DNA from: Thermoprotei archaeon
GTDB lineage: Archaea > Thermoproteota > Thermoprotei > Gearchaeales > WAQG01
Direction of reading: 5' to 3'
Assembly: GCA_038881895.1 (NCBI GenBank)
Contig: JAVZOV010000003.1
Coordinates: 192,492-256,491 of the forward strand
Length of the DNA stretch: 64,000 nucleotides
Below, one piece after another: positions 15,295 to 58,631 of the stretch (position 1 is the stretch's first letter; every line of letters begins with the position of its first letter). Under the pieces are notes generated by a model that made no database searches, had not been told where the DNA came from, and worked only from the letters and a program-made list of their open reading frames with translations. The position numbers were made by a program, and so were the translations under genes.

Positions 15295-15425
15295 GCCGGG
15301 GTCGCCTAGAGGAAAATTACCGGGAAGCCTGGCCAGGGCGCCGGACTCATAATGTTATGAGAGGGGTACGGCGTCCACCATGAGAGATCCGGTCTCCCCG
15401 AGTTCAAATCTCGGCCCCGGCACCA
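15295..15425 (+). tRNA. tRNA-Met (CAU) with two introns
   Basis: Acceptor stem GCCGGGG/CCCCGGC, discriminator A, encoded CCA. T arm CCGAG-TTCAAAT-CTCGG. Anticodon loop CTCATAA gives CAU. Canonical intron at 37/38, 35 bases (15352-15386): central helix CTCA/TGAG flanked by bulges TAA and AGA. A second, 18-base intron (15310-15327) interrupts the D loop; removal gives the D arm GCCT-AG-CCTGGCCA-GGGC, with bulges AGA and AGC and a short CCT/GGG helix. Whether it is initiator, elongator or tRNA-Ile2 cannot be decided by eye. Confidence 0.9.
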
Positions 15426-15549: not shown

Positions 15550-16788
15550 GTGGGATTTCGTGATTTAGGTAAAGGGATGCTCATGGTGTTTATCTTTTTA
15601 TCGCTAACTTCACTTTTTGCTGATATGACTTATGAGGGTGCTAGGTCGATTTTTGGTTCGTATATGGAGGTTCTTGGCGCTACAGCGCTGTTTGCTAGTC
15701 TGGCTAGTGTTGGTGAGTTTTTGGGATATATTATGAGGTTTGTTAGCGGTGTTCTTGCTGGTTATCTTAAATCAAGTAAAAGCTATTGGGGATTAACCTT
15801 TGCAGGTTATATATTGAACTTGGTTGCTGTTCCATTGTTGGCTTTTTCTGGTCAGTGGCAAATAGCAGTGATTCTTATTTTTCTCGAAAGAATGGGTAAA
15901 GGGTTGAGGACGCCAAGTAGGGACGTTATATTAGCTGAGGTGACTGAGAAAATTGGTAAAGGCAAAGCTTTTGGCCTTCATGAAGCTTTGGATCAAGCTG
16001 GAGCGGTATTAGGTCCTCTTATTGTTTCTGCATCACTTTTTGTGACTGGTTCAAGTTATCTTGTTGCGTTCTTATTGTTAGCCTTTCCTGCTGGTGCTTC
16101 TATTATTTTTCTTTTCAATGCTTATATGAAATATCCGAGTATAAAGGCTGCAGAGAAGGCAGTTCCAGTTTTTGAAAGTAGATCTGCTCTTAATGATGTT
16201 TTTTGGTTATATACAATATCTATGTCGTTTGTTGCTCTTGGATTTATGCACTGGATTAATGTCTCGTATTATTTTAAAGCGGAGGGTGTTATTCCAGATT
16301 ATATGATTGCTGTAATGTATCTTATTGCAATGCTTGTTGATGGTCTTTTGGCTTTTCCGATAGGGTTGATTTATGATAAGTTTGGGATTGTTTCTCTTCT
16401 TTTAACACCATTGTTTTCAGTTTTAGTTGTTCCATTAATTCTCATGAATACTTTTGTTTCGGCCTTGTTTTCTAGTATCTTCTGGGGTACTGTTATGGGT
16501 ATTTATGAGAGTACTGCGAGAGCTGCTATTGCTGATATTGTACCACAAGAAGGAAGAGCTTATGGTTATGGCATATTCGGTGCATTTTACGGTGTGGCAT
16601 GGATGCTCGGGTCGATAATCTACGGGTATCTTTATGAGAGTTTTATTCAGTACATGACCTTGTTTGCAATAATTATTGAATTGCTGGCATTTATTATTTT
16701 AATAATTACAGTAAAAAGATTTAAGGAATCAAAGAGTAAACAGAATTATGCCTTAAAAAACAGTTTCAAAATAGATGGAGTTAAATAG
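15550..16788 (+). CDS. MFS transporter
   Basis: 412 residues, about twelve membrane helices. The loop motif FLERMGKGLRTPSRDVILAEVTE between helices 4 and 5 is the variant seen in a widespread archaeal/bacterial MFS group of unknown substrate. GTG start at 15550 follows AGGTGA by seven bases. The last dozen codons (ALKNSFKIDGVK, stop TAG) are read from the left end of the mini-transposon that starts near 16752, so the original C-terminus has been replaced. Confidence 0.85.
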   Translation: MGFRDLGKGMLMVFIFLSLTSLFADMTYEGARSIFGSYMEVLGATALFASLASVGEFLGYIMRFVSGVLAGYLKSSKSYWGLTFAGYILNLVAVPLLAFSGQWQIAVILIFLERMGKGLRTPSRDVILAEVTEKIGKGKAFGLHEALDQAGAVLGPLIVSASLFVTGSSYLVAFLLLAFPAGASIIFLFNAYMKYPSIKAAEKAVPVFESRSALNDVFWLYTISMSFVALGFMHWINVSYYFKAEGVIPDYMIAVMYLIAMLVDGLLAFPIGLIYDKFGIVSLLLTPLFSVLVVPLILMNTFVSALFSSIFWGTVMGIYESTARAAIADIVPQEGRAYGYGIFGAFYGVAWMLGSIIYGYLYESFIQYMTLFAIIIELLAFIILIITVKRFKESKSKQNYALKNSFKIDGVK

Positions 16789-17081
16789 ACATAAGTCGTA
16801 ATATTTTCTTGATGGAGAAGCTTTACACTCTCAAAGAGGCAGCGTTTAGCTGTCTTTGTCAGTATTTTCAGAGCAGATAGGTTTAAATATGGTTTGCTCA
16901 TACGTTTTAGTGTCCCCTCTGCTCTGGAAGCATGGCTTCCTATGGGGATGGGTGGGCTGGGGGTTGACCTTCGAATGTGGGGATGTCGGGTTTACCCCGA
17001 AAGCCCTCGATGAGCTAATCGAGAGGGAAGGGTTGAGTAGAGGTGATAAAACACTATGAATCTCTACTTAACTCAGAACCC
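16752..17081 (+). mobile_element. IS607-derived mini-element (copy A)
   Basis: Close relative of the inverted copy at 40865-41202: both begin CTTAAAAAACAGTTTCAAAA and end TCTACTTAACTCAGAACCC. Two tandem left-end motifs are visible (near 16760 and 16860, each a CAG-TTTC-like block followed by TTTAAATA or TTAAATAG). The right portion retains a tnpB tail (CCCTCGATGAGCTAATCGAG, GAGGGAAGGGTTGAGTAG). A 67-codon frame inside it is a fusion of left and right ends and is not a host gene. It lies between the MFS gene and queC and contributes coding sequence to both. Confidence 0.8.
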
Positions 17082-17739
17082 AAGTGAAAGGGTCGCTATT
17101 GTTTTATTTTCTGGAGGGTTAGATTCTACTGTTGCCCTTTGGTGGGCTTTAAAGAAGAATTTTTACGTTATTCCTTTAATGATCGATACAGGTAGTCGGG
17201 TTAAAAGTGAGAAAGAGCACGCTATGATGATATTGAGCACAGCTGGTATTAAAAATTTTATAAATGTTAATTTAGATTTCGTGAAAGATTTGTTTGATCT
17301 CAGTTTGAATGGTATCATTCCTTATAATTTGAATGCTATAAAGTCGCCTGCTTACATACCTGCTAAAAACTTGATTTTTTACTCTATTGCAGTTTATTAT
17401 GCGGAGATATACAATGCAAAGTATATTATCGGTGGTCATAATGCTGATGATAGCGATTTTTTTCCTGACGCCACCCCTGAGTTCTTTCGTTTTTTAAACA
17501 AGATTATCGATATAGGAACGTTTGCCAAGGGTAAGATAAAGATTGTTCAACCGCTGATTAGGTTATCAAAAGCTGATATCGTAAAGCTGGGTGCAAAATT
17601 AGGTGCTCCATTAGACATGACATGGAGTTGTCAAAAGAATGATGATGTTCAATGTGGAGTATGCGGATCGTGTGAGCTCAGAAGGAAAGCATTCAAAGAT
17701 GCAAACATACCAGATTTAACTGAATATAAAATTTATTAA
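17056..17739 (+). CDS. queC: 7-cyano-7-deazaguanine synthase (QueC)
   Basis: 227 residues. It makes preQ0 from 7-carboxy-7-deazaguanine, ATP and ammonia, the precursor of archaeosine in archaeal tRNA. PP-loop motif FSGGLDSTVALWW near residue 20; C-terminal zinc site in SCQKNDDVQCGVCGSC followed by CELRRKAF; GGHNADDSDFFPDATPEF in the middle. The start ATG, the ribosome binding site GAGGTGAT eight bases before it, and the first nine codons (MNLYLTQNP) belong to the right end of the mini-transposon. There is no other start codon between that ATG and the conserved VAIVLFSGG strand, so the native 5' end is gone and the chimera is the only way to translate the gene. Confidence 0.9.
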   Translation: MNLYLTQNPSERVAIVLFSGGLDSTVALWWALKKNFYVIPLMIDTGSRVKSEKEHAMMILSTAGIKNFINVNLDFVKDLFDLSLNGIIPYNLNAIKSPAYIPAKNLIFYSIAVYYAEIYNAKYIIGGHNADDSDFFPDATPEFFRFLNKIIDIGTFAKGKIKIVQPLIRLSKADIVKLGAKLGAPLDMTWSCQKNDDVQCGVCGSCELRRKAFKDANIPDLTEYKIY

Positions 17740-21407: not shown

Positions 21408-22600
21408 TCAGCGCTTATTTAACTCGTCACATAATGGGGTTCTGAGTTGAGTAGGAATGCATAGTGAATTGTTGCTTTTATTCCTACTTAACCCTTCCCT
21501 CTCGATTAATTCGTTGGGGGCTCTCGGGGAGAACCCAATTCCCCGCATCTGAAGGTTCAACACCGCTACAACATCCCTATCCATTGTTAACCCGCATTCT
21601 TCGCACTTCATTATCCTGCCCAGATAGGAAGCCATGCTTCCGGAGCAGGCTGGGCAGGTTTTAGACGAGTTGGCTGGGTTAACGTATTTTGTTGGTAAAT
21701 TAAGCCATTTAAGCTTGTATTCGAGCATGAGTTGGAATGTTCTTGCGTTCCACTTTGAGAGCTTTCTGTTATTTTTCCTTGAGCCGTTGAGGATTCGTCT
21801 CTTTACACCTTTCAGGTTTTCAAGTATTGCTCCGCAGTTCTTCTCCTTGAGCTCCCTCGCAATCTGCGTGGTTAGTTTATGCATGAAGTCTTTAGCCCTA
21901 TTCTTCTCACGCTTAGAGTACTTCTCTAATAGTCTCTTTGAGGTTAGAGGCTTAATCTTAGATAACTTTTGCATCCTCTGCCGCTTTACCTCATAAACTC
22001 TATGAATGTGGTAGAGCTCTCTTAAGTCATAGCGCTTGACCTCGCCACCTATGAACGCCGTCACGTTCGTTAAGTTCACATCGAAGGAAGCCCACTTTTC
22101 TGCCTTCGGCTCAACCCTCTTCTTAACTGTAATTATCAACTCCCTCTCAGTCATAAGTAGCCCACCGACTTTATCAAAGTCTTTGGAATCCACGAACACT
22201 CACTCAAGTCGACCTCAAGATAACGCTTATTCGGTTCAATGCTTACCCTCAGCATGCCATTTCTGAAGCTGAAGAGCGTGCTCTTGATGTAAACGGTTTT
22301 TTTAGTTATCTCAGGAGACTCCTTTGCTTTCCCCCTATTGTAGAGCGTTATCCAGCCCTTAACTAATCCGATGACAGAGTTCATTGCTGAGTCAACGTAA
22401 TGCTTTGAGTATCTCCACTCCCGTAGCAATCCATCCCTAAGCTCTCTCCTATCCTCAGCTTTCAAGTTAAGGTGAGCCTTCTTGGAAATTTTAACGTGTG
22501 AGAAGATTGCGTCTAAAGCCTTCCGCTTAACTTTGAAGTATTCCTCGATTAAATCCTTCGGAGCCTCTACTGGGATCCCGTAGCTTTTAACTGCTTCCAT
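21408..22600 (-). pseudogene. tnpB: tnpB (IS607-type), frameshifted
   Basis: The N-terminal part (22600 to about 22184) and the C-terminal part (about 22199-21408) are in different frames. Compared with the intact copy (AAGTCTCTTGGAATCC) this one reads AAGTCTTTGGAATCC near 22181, a one-base deletion. Otherwise RuvC-I Asp (ASFDVNLTNV), RuvC-II Glu (AILENLKGVK), the CPACSG...CEECG zinc finger and RuvC-III Asp (LTMDRDVVAVLN) are intact. The deletion looks recent. Confidence 0.85.
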
Positions 22601-22824
22601 AGCCTTTCAACTTCGCTCTTTGGATATCTCAGCTTGCCAGTTGGGAGCCTAACAGCTCTAATAATGCCTTTCCTTTGCCACTCCCAGAGCGTTTTAACTG
22701 AGATGTTGAATATCTTTGCAACATCCTTTGGTCTAAGCAGTTCCTCGTAATCTCCAGACGTCATTAAGGATAAAGTAATCAACCTCTATTTAAACCTGTC
22801 CGTCTCGAAACTGCTGACAACGGC
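21437..22824 (-). mobile_element. IS607-like element, degenerate copy
   Basis: Left end (minus strand) GCCGTTGTCAGCAGTTTCGA with TTTAAATAGAGG promoter-like motif; right end CTACTCAACTCAGAACCCC. Contains an HTH-only tnpA-like gene followed by tnpB with a frameshift. About 85-90 percent identical by eye to the copy at 56976-58364. The ends are next to GG/CC, the preferred target of IS607 serine recombinases. Confidence 0.8.
22567..22782 (-). CDS. HTH-only TnpA-like protein of IS607-type element
   Basis: 71 residues. A MerR-type helix-turn-helix (LRPKDVAKIFNISVKTLWEW, then KGIIRAVRLPTGKLRYPKSE) equal to the N-terminal domain of IS607 TnpA, but the serine-recombinase catalytic domain that should follow is absent. 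It ends ATGSQ and overlaps tnpB. It is nearly identical to the 58107-58322 protein, so the truncation predates the spread of both copies. Confidence 0.85.
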   Translation of the reverse strand: MITLSLMTSGDYEELLRPKDVAKIFNISVKTLWEWQRKGIIRAVRLPTGKLRYPKSEVERLWKQLKATGSQ

Positions 22825-22921
22825 ATCGTTCATGAGTGAAAAGAAGCGTAAATTAGAGTTAACTGCATAGAAAGTGTTGCTTAACTCTATATTTAAATGC
22901 TTCTAACGGTTATAATTTCAT

Positions 22922-40628: not shown

Positions 40629-40867
40629 CTCCCACACCCCTTTATTTCCACTGGAAATAATATAGCATTATCCTGTTATTTTTCTACTAAAATATTTTTT
40701 AGTAAAATACATGAATATCTGTACCATAAAGCATTTAATATTTTAAAGAAATAACAAATGGGGTATTTTATTCTTAAGGAAATATGTTATTCTTAAACAA
40801 AAAGTTAATATCATGAAGAAACAGCATTTTGCTCACTAGTTCCAGTGGAAACAGAGGGGTGTGGGGG
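40629..40867. other. Probable replication origin: inverted ORB pair around AT-rich DNA
   Basis: Plus strand 40840-40866 reads TTCCAGTGGAAACAGAGGGG then TGTGGGG; the reverse complement of 40629-40656 reads TTCCAGTGGAAATAAAGGGG then TGTGGGAG. These agree with the archaeal origin recognition box: a dyad followed by a G-string. They face each other across about 180 bases of DNA with very few G/C, a suitable unwinding element. Genes on the left are mostly leftward (Sec61-beta, DUF2070, aminotransferase) and FAD synthase on the right is rightward. No orc1/cdc6 gene is in the window. The inverted copies also could be read as a MITE with terminal repeats, but the ORB match is specific. Bases 40330-40628 are AT-rich with no gene. 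Confidence 0.7.
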
Positions 40868-41202
40868 TTCTGAGTTAAGTAGAGATTCATAGTGTTTTAT
40901 CACCTCTACTCAACTCTTCCCTCTCGATTAGCTCATCGAGGGCTTTCGGGGTAAACCCGACATCCCCACATCCGAAGGTCAACCCCCAGCCCACCCATCC
41001 CCATAGGAAGTCATGCTTCCAGAGCAGAGGGGACATTAAAACGTATGAGCAACCTCTATTTAAACCTATCTGCTCTGAAAATACTGACAAAGGCAGCTAA
41101 ACGCTGCCTCTTAGCCTCTTTGAGAGTGCAAAGCTTCTCCATCAAGAAGATATTATGGCTTATCTCTATTTAAGTCTATCTATTTTGAAACTGTTTTTTA
41201 AG
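40865..41202 (-). mobile_element. IS607-derived mini-element (copy B)
   Basis: Reverse-complement copy of the element at 16752-17081, from CTTAAAAAACAGTTTCAAAA (minus strand, ending 41202) to TCTACTTAACTCAGAACCC (40865). It abuts the G-run of the right ORB, in keeping with a GG target. The internal 67-codon frame is the same end-to-end fusion seen in copy A. Bases 41203-41402 downstream are AT-rich and carry the promoter of the FAD synthase gene. Confidence 0.8.
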
Positions 41203-56985: not shown

Positions 56986-58140
56986 TTAAGTAGGAATATA
57001 TAGTGAATTGTTGCTTTTATTCCTACTTAACCCTTCCCCCTCGATTATTTCATTGGGGGCTCTTTGGGGGAACCCTTCTCCCCGCATCTGAAGGTTCAAC
57101 ACCGCTATGATATCTCTATCCATTGTTAACCCGCACTTTTCGCACTTCATTATCCTGCCCAGATAGGAAGCCATGCCTCCTGAGCAGGCTGGGCAGGTTT
57201 TAGACGAGTTGGCTGGGTTAACGTATTTTACTGGTAGGTTAAGCCATTTCAGCTTGTATTCAAGCATGAACTGAAACGTCCTTGCGTTCCACTTTGAGAG
57301 CTTTCGGTTCACGTCTTTAGACTTGTTGAGGATTCGCCCCTTTATACCTTTCAGGTTTTCAAGTATTGCTCCGCAGTTCTTCTCCTTGAGCTCCCCCGCA
57401 ACCTGTGTGGTTAACTTGTGCATGAAGTCTTTAGCCCTATTCTCCTCACGTTTAGAGTACTTCTCTAATAGTCTCTTTGAGGTTAGAGGCTTAAACTTAG
57501 ATAACTTTTGTATCCTCTGCCGCTTAGTTTCATAGGTTCTGTGAATATGGTAGAGCTCTCTTAAGTCATAGCGCTTGATCTCACCACCTATGAACGCCGT
57601 CACGTTCGTTAAGTTAACATCGAAGGAAGCCCACTCATCAACCTTCGGCTCAACCCTCTTCTTAACCGTTACTATCAACTCACTTTCAGTCATAAGTAGT
57701 CCACCGACTTTATCAAAGTCTCTTGGAATCCACGAACACTTACTCAAGTCAACCTCAAGATACCGCTTACTAGGCTCTACGCTTATCCTCAGTATGCCAT
57801 TTCTGAAGCTGAAGAGCGTGCTTTTAATATATACTGTCCTCTTAGTTATCTTAGGAGGCTCCTTCGCCCTTCTCCTATTGTAGAGCGTTATCCAGCCCTT
57901 AACAAGCCCTATGACAGAGTTTATTGCTGAATCAACGTAATGCTTTGAGTATCTCCATCCCCTCAGCAGTTCATCCCTAAGCCTTTTCCTATTCTCTCTA
58001 TCGAATTCGAGGTGAGCCTTCTCGGAAATTTTAACGTGTGAGAAGATTGTGTCTAAAGCCTTCCGCTTAACTTTGAAGTATTCCTCGATTAAATCCTTCG
58101 GAGCCTCTACTGGGATCCTGTAGCTCTTAATTGCTTCCAT
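56986..58140 (-). CDS. tnpB: TnpB RNA-guided nuclease (IS607-type), intact
   Basis: 384 residues. RuvC-I Asp WASFDVNLTNVTAF, RuvC-II Glu GAILENLKGIKG, zinc finger CPACSGG...CEKCG, RuvC-III Asp LTMDRDIIAVLNLQM. All catalytic residues present. N-terminal EEYFKVKRKALDTIFSHVKI. Its start overlaps the end of the HTH gene by about 34 bases, so the two are translated together. Confidence 0.9.
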   Translation of the reverse strand: MEAIKSYRIPVEAPKDLIEEYFKVKRKALDTIFSHVKISEKAHLEFDRENRKRLRDELLRGWRYSKHYVDSAINSVIGLVKGWITLYNRRRAKEPPKITKRTVYIKSTLFSFRNGILRISVEPSKRYLEVDLSKCSWIPRDFDKVGGLLMTESELIVTVKKRVEPKVDEWASFDVNLTNVTAFIGGEIKRYDLRELYHIHRTYETKRQRIQKLSKFKPLTSKRLLEKYSKREENRAKDFMHKLTTQVAGELKEKNCGAILENLKGIKGRILNKSKDVNRKLSKWNARTFQFMLEYKLKWLNLPVKYVNPANSSKTCPACSGGMASYLGRIMKCEKCGLTMDRDIIAVLNLQMRGEGFPQRAPNEIIEGEGLSRNKSNNSLYIPT

Positions 58141-58322
58141 AATCTCTCAACTTCGCTCTTGGGATATCGGAGCTTGCCAGTTGGGAGCCTAACAGCTCTA
58201 ATAATGCCTTTCCTTTGCCACTCCCAGAGCGTTTTAACTGAGATGTTGAATATCTTTGCAACATCCTTTGGTCTAAGCAGTTCCTCGTAATCTCCAGACG
58301 TCATTAAGGATAAAGTAATCAA
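58107..58322 (-). CDS. HTH-only TnpA-like protein of IS607-type element
   Basis: 71 residues, differing from the 22567-22782 protein by one residue near the C-terminus (Arg for Lys). MerR-like helix-turn-helix and wing (FNISVKTLWEWQRKGIIRAV) are complete; the serine recombinase domain (about 130 residues in normal TnpA) is missing. Its role may be to bind the element's own ends and control tnpB expression. Confidence 0.85.
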   Translation of the reverse strand: MITLSLMTSGDYEELLRPKDVAKIFNISVKTLWEWQRKGIIRAVRLPTGKLRYPKSEVERLWKQLRATGSQ

Positions 58323-58631
58323 CCTCTATTTAAACCTGTCTGTCTCGAAACTGCTGACAACGGCAATAAGCAATACTATAAAGACTATAACTGCAGCAGT
58401 TAATGGCCTGTATATCCAGGATGCTAACAACATTACAACATAAACAAAACCGTATCCGATAAATATTAATGGAGCATTCACCATCGTAGTTACAGCGAAT
58501 CCACTAATTATTACAAAGATTATGTTCGGAAATAATCTTTTGTAATTCATAGAATTCATAATGGATCATGTAACCTATCGCATGATAATTATTTAAGTGC
58601 TTCGATTATTGCATGAAAATATTAGAAGGAA

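Follow-up and report, generated by a model that had tools for sequence, protein, structure and literature searches.

A small transposon lies between a gene for an MFS transporter and queC in the genome of a Thermoprotei archaeon, where it supplies the end of the first gene and the start of the second. Both this gene arrangement and the family relationship of the element (copy A) are directly visible in the DNA. In the reading that we consider probable, an IS607-type mini-element split an overlap between MFS and queC, leaving MFS with a new stop and queC with a new start and its own Shine-Dalgarno (SD) sequence. Mobilised in trans by a serine transposase (TnpA), the non-autonomous element would have recombined into a CC dinucleotide within an 11-nt MFS/queC overlap (ATG-CC-AAG-TGA) and split it without duplication or loss. 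MFS would then read 11 element codons to a TAG, and queC would have lost an overlapping, SD-less start and taken an ATG in the right-end hairpin that is preceded by an 8-nt SD. Ribosomes may initiate at this start directly, or may re-initiate there after reading a tnpB-remnant frame that ends in ATGA. The capture would be opportunistic and would not serve to drive neighbouring genes; taken together, the arrangement has the appearance of a tidy chance event involving a familiar type of element, not of an inbuilt switch. The DNA analysed (the window) comprises 64,000 nucleotides (C3:192492-256491) of a 1.75 Mb genome in seven contigs.

Table 1 Features of the element and its surroundings, in window coordinates.
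Feature	Position	Strand	Basis
Gene for MFS transporter, ending inside the element with 11 codons (LKNSFKIDGVK) and TAG	15550..16788	+	ORF; PF07690 1e-25
Left-flank ATGCC: putative ancestral queC ATG and CC crossover core	16748..16752	+	flank join, GCC rule
Copy A, non-autonomous IS607-type element	16753..17081	+	repeat comparison, family copies, junction analysis
Copy A left end, common to autonomous IS607 element	16753..16841	+	94% to C1:302040-302125
TTTAAATA, candidate archaeal TATA box	16882..16889	+	conserved in family copies
tnpB 3' tail and right end, fold resembling TnpB guide-RNA scaffold	16960..17081	+	sequence match, consensus fold
Hairpin with SD in stem, ATG in loop region	17030..17074	+	-20.5 kcal/mol, z -5.4
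GAGGTGAT, 8-nt SD match	17040..17047	+	0.1% of random 17-mers reach 8 nt
queC (227 aa), with MNLYLTQN and two bases of a Pro codon supplied by the element	17056..17739	+	ORF; PF06508 1.2e-49
Copy B of the element	40865..41202	-	97% and 92% identity to copy A in two blocks

The mini-transposon recognised in the preliminary description was borne out as an IS607-type non-autonomous derivative. Copy A (~330 bp, with the CC at 16751-16752 as the shared crossover core on its left) is a composite of two related left ends and a tnpB tail, in which no gene is complete. Over the first ~89 bp it matches an autonomous element at its left end, which there runs into an intact 202-aa TnpA beginning MEKLYTLKEA; these ten codons are present in copy A as well (ATG at 16812), ahead of the point where similarity is lost. 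The other parts resemble a second group, made up of TnpB elements in which TnpA is reduced to a 71-aa HTH piece: the middle carries their left-end promoter region (..AGGTTTAAATA), and the last ~120 bp correspond to their tnpB tail and right end (~75% identity). Copy A is classed as non-autonomous because only about the first ten tnpA codons are left. Its termini, TTAAAAAACAG.. and ..CTCAGAACCC, do not form inverted repeats, and for this reason "mini-IS607 derivative" is a more exact term than MITE in the strict sense. TTTAAATA also occurs in other copies and upstream of the HTH gene of TnpB elements, and this consensus match at a conserved place is a promoter candidate. Read inward, both ends of copy A present stops in all three frames within ~36 nt, so that insertions at the 3' ends of genes would be tolerable.

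Genome-wide, six near-full copies (327-338 bp, 93-100% identity to copy A; 93-96% for those other than copy A) all reach the right terminus, and there are partial copies too, several of them at contig ends. The IS607 transposase model NF033518 matches 44 times in the genome, nine times above cut-off, and serine-recombinase TnpA proteins with an N-terminal HTH are present; one TnpA above cut-off follows the left end that matches that of copy A. TnpB matches number 80. As read from joined flanks, an OsmC-like frame ends 11 codons beyond the insertion point of the copy in L002, and an ESCRT-III/Snf7-like frame four codons beyond that of the copy in L006 (both labels assigned by eye). In the hybrid copy at L012:1-219 the body of the mini-element is joined to a right end of TnpB type, suggesting that the element groups have recombined.

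The left flank ends in GCC at 32 of 33 left junctions, comprising 23/23 TnpB elements and 9/10 sites with a copy A-type left end (including the autonomous relative, one rearranged copy and two sites at contig ends); the exception is copy B, with GAC. The left-end search pattern did not contain these flank bases. Insertion at a GG/CC dinucleotide was therefore found here, and PMC6188088 and PMC10711439 describe IS607 elements as inserting at GG without target duplication. The junction rule was examined in one test case, a TnpB element (~C1:349541-350915; L106) nested in an IS607 tnpA. When its flanks were joined after GCC and CCC, the product was gapless at the junction against the uninterrupted tnpA entries L065, L099 and L063 (the last two being the same place) and the frame was continuous, so a simple join without target-site duplication restores the empty site in this nested case. 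For copy A, we infer that the same simple join without target duplication applies. Copy A thus resembles the IS607 family (serine TnpA, TnpB accessory) in its GG/CC target dinucleotide without duplication, in a left end shared with an intact genomic IS607 tnpA and in its retained tnpB tail and right end, and differs from it in being composite and without a complete gene, with movement necessarily in trans.

At the left junction the MFS frame passes through GCC into the element and reads LKNSFKIDGVK, then TAG; the stop is element-borne as first described, with 11 codons before it and not a dozen. At the right junction, queC does take its ATG from the element, and with it come another seven codons and two bases of a Pro codon, 26 nt in all, not the nine codons counted earlier. 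The N-terminus of QueC today reads MNLYLTQNP-SERVAIV, and a product made from the 17056 ATG is predicted to carry N-terminal MNLYLTQNPSER. The MFS tail and these QueC residues are attributed to the element because they recur in copies elsewhere. From the in-frame TAA (17047-17049) to the SGGLDS PP-loop motif, 17056 is the sole ATG, GTG or TTG; the earlier statement that queC has no other start accordingly holds for the present gene but probably not for the time before insertion, when the ATG at 16748-16750 would have served, judging from the joined flanks. GAGGTGAT stands 8 nt from the queC ATG, and an 8-nt match to the SD consensus is found at the first start of 2/40 long ORFs in the window. 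QueC would probably be translated from the new start. Eleven MFS loci were examined and six left out (L048, L049, L053, L054, L055 and L057), in which another, longer ORF had been taken instead, as judged by eye from the C-termini; a tail like LKNSFKIDGVK occurs in none of the other five, whose proteins end shortly after the last membrane segment.

The empty site of copy A was reconstructed from the target rule. Joining the flanks by the GCC rule connects AATTATGCC to AAGTGAAAGG (more fully, AATTATGCC to AAGTGAAAGGGTCGC), with the restored junction reading AATTATGCCAAGTGAAAGG. In the joined sequence MFS ends in ..KQNYAK and a stop, and queC starts MPSERVAIV (MPSERVAIVLFSGG) from the ATG that is still present on the left flank, the two overlapping by 11 nt. 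The join was not chosen to give both an MFS stop and an in-frame queC start, yet it yields both. These features depend on a rule checked in a sibling insertion and suggest that queC possessed its own start, overlapping MFS, before the insertion. The SD match is 3 nt at this reconstructed start versus 8 nt at the new one, and the insertion would thus have swapped a coupled start for a free-standing one. Matches to QueC at 1e-30 were present in 19/61 genomes (that of the window included), the best other one at 42% identity. When genome contigs were searched with the single protein, none of the 92 pattern matches was a relative; with an 8-sequence QueC alignment 104 relatives were obtained, the best 80 of which are 31-42% identical. 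The MFS neighbour was absent from the 25 and 80 QueC loci examined, except the window's own. Among these relatives, the best being 39-42% identical and thus too distant to show the empty site directly, no element-free MFS-queC junction already bearing the residues in question was found.

The right end had also been proposed to be a portable translation-initiation module, which would make it an evolved device for expressing downstream genes. All nine right ends of the copy A type are identical over their last ~45 nt and carry the SD-ATG, copy B included, in agreement with the arrangement noted previously for that copy, and a candidate promoter lies upstream, as such a module might have. However, only one of the nine reads into a gene: the ATG opens 227 (queC), 9, 9, 38, 13, 29, 30, 33 and 22 codons, the same 26 nt yielding 9-38 codons in the other eight. 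Such a 5' fusion would arise at 17/790 GCC sites in the window (counting mechanical ORFs of at least 100 codons rather than verified genes; sites at most 1,500 bases from the strand end skipped), corresponding to at least one such fusion by chance in ~18% of nine-copy sets. In addition, an ATG at -26 is kept in 15/21 of the TnpB-type ends listed, GAGGTGAT in 0/21, the SD is sequestered in a stable hairpin, and the identity of the ends is explained by recombination and guide-RNA constraint. The proposed module is weak on these counts, and we consider it very improbable. The SD-ATG seems instead to be incidental to a right end of the guide-RNA type, which has been captured on one occasion, and family right ends would carry it because of their tnpB-tail/guide-RNA-end sequence. 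The right-end census (40 rows) used a pattern that demanded CTC-, TTC- or CCC-AGAACCC, so that the finish of all listed ends in CAGAACCC is built into the search; six TnpB-type ends with TCCAGAACCC were missed by it and were included in the right-end alignment set, which omits L003:1978 and L090:3490. In L018, an ATG located 45 nt within the right end opens a frame of 167 codons; this possible second 5' fusion has no Pfam match and was not counted.

The right-end hairpin has 15 outer pairs and was matched in stability at 37 °C by 0/200 shuffles. Across 45 ends, stem pairing is kept between element groups by substitutions that include G-C/A-T, T-A/C-G and G-C/T-A; the covariation claim rests on these family-level counts, in which helices were matched by script with a bias towards pairing (L097:2018-2071, not a right end, was left out). 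RNAalifold on 30 right ends (L004, L081 and eight IS607-type ends excluded) gave just one pair with changes on both sides; its consensus structure further includes a second hairpin and a closing stem formed by GGGTTY and the terminal GAACCC. A conserved RNA structure thus abuts the right end, with the caveat that it overlaps the coding sequence of the tnpB tail. TnpB omegaRNA/reRNA is described in PMC10711439 and PMC12558985 as a structured RNA in which the 3' region of tnpB is combined with the right end, the guide being taken from the right flank. The fold of copy A looks like that expected of a TnpB right-end RNA whose guide would begin in queC, and an RNA is presumably made from this end. 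A TnpB guide-RNA end that can be read as a host-protein N-terminus means that guide-RNA and mRNA-leader roles can collide. It is very unlikely that a TnpB guide-RNA scaffold forms the beginning of the queC messenger, with TnpB binding or trimming controlling QueC and the guide marking the empty allele; if true, a guide within the queC coding sequence would direct cutting of the empty allele, and the element would be kept in the gene. At L081:2612-2665 and L064:275-328 the stem of the right-end hairpin is retained, with the loop in the opposite orientation to that of sibling copies.

The hairpin is predicted to remain folded up to ~85 °C, and most of the SD to be base-paired (unpaired probability averaging 0.21 at 37 °C and 0.33 at 75 °C), so direct initiation may be poor and re-initiation becomes a real alternative. 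Ribosomes translating the 67-codon tnpB-remnant frame (16856-17059) would open the hairpin, which would otherwise hide the SD, and restart at the ATGA (17056-17059) in which the queC ATG overlaps the remnant stop, much as queC would have overlapped its upstream gene in the presumed ancestor. Single-base indels within the span of this frame in some sibling copies, where it is not clearly maintained, and the want of a confirmed start codon downstream of the candidate promoter speak against this route, which we regard as possible but doubtful; it is a variant of, and compatible with, capture by a mini-element that split the overlap.

The fused gene encodes a QueC (preQ0 synthase) by its profile, PP-loop and four-Cys site (PF06508, 169 bits, cut-off 22), with a TIGR00364 score of 139.9 bits that lies under the cut-off of 150.3. 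A second QueC (C1:490246-490893, 165 bits) is encoded in the genome, which has one TGT, and expression of the fused queC therefore cannot be argued as necessary. The insertion might then have disabled or weakened queC, leaving a lucky open frame in a recent, silent copy whose hairpin blocks initiation while the second queC carries the pathway. The SD held in a stable stem would fit, as would the identity of the other near-full copies to copy A, by which the insertion may be young. Against this, the frame is intact, all 39 columns invariant in the 8-sequence alignment (in which the fused QueC is itself one row) are retained, the SD is among the best of the window, and the two QueCs are just 30% identical, so their roles may differ. 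Silencing is accordingly unlikely, and a split overlap with a working new start remains the preferred reading. The second QueC directly follows, and overlaps, a QueT-like membrane protein (L190:753-1942).

Mini-elements that supply stops and C-terminal residues, and in-frame mini-elements, are already known. In Coxiella burnetii, QMITE1/QMITE2 give host genes last codons and a stop, up to 16 residues (PMC5896051); the functional annotated genes affected there are all reported to have the insertion at the 3' end, and no gene of known function to have a changed 5' end. Copy A is like them in supplying a stop and C-terminal residues, and differs in serving both gene ends. Rickettsia palindromic elements are mini-elements turned into in-frame protein-coding sequence (PMC10969869); they are described as lying within genes, whereas copy A forms a new stop and a new start for two genes. 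Compared with the omegaRNA/reRNA ends described in the literature, that of copy A would also encode a host-protein start. A search of the open-licence literature, which is not proof of absence, turned up no account of a gene that takes its start from an IS607-type mini-element; as far as searched, one insertion that ends one gene and starts the next inside a former overlap, with a guide-RNA-type N-terminus, is new. It offers a base-exact natural case in which a single small-transposon insertion gives an upstream stop and a downstream start with its own SD, apparently uncoupling two genes and suggesting that overlapping genes are separable in one step.

Upstream of MFS, a tRNA-like, apparently intron-containing sequence was seen by eye at 15299-15425; it was not reported by ARAGORN or Rfam, the Rfam scan of the window giving tRNAs only. 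The window also holds two TnpB elements, at 21408-22830 (-) and 56986-58365 (-), in which the serine transposase is cut down to a 71-aa HTH, and more than 20 similar HTH-stub elements occur in the genome, the stub being kept though the catalytic part is lost.
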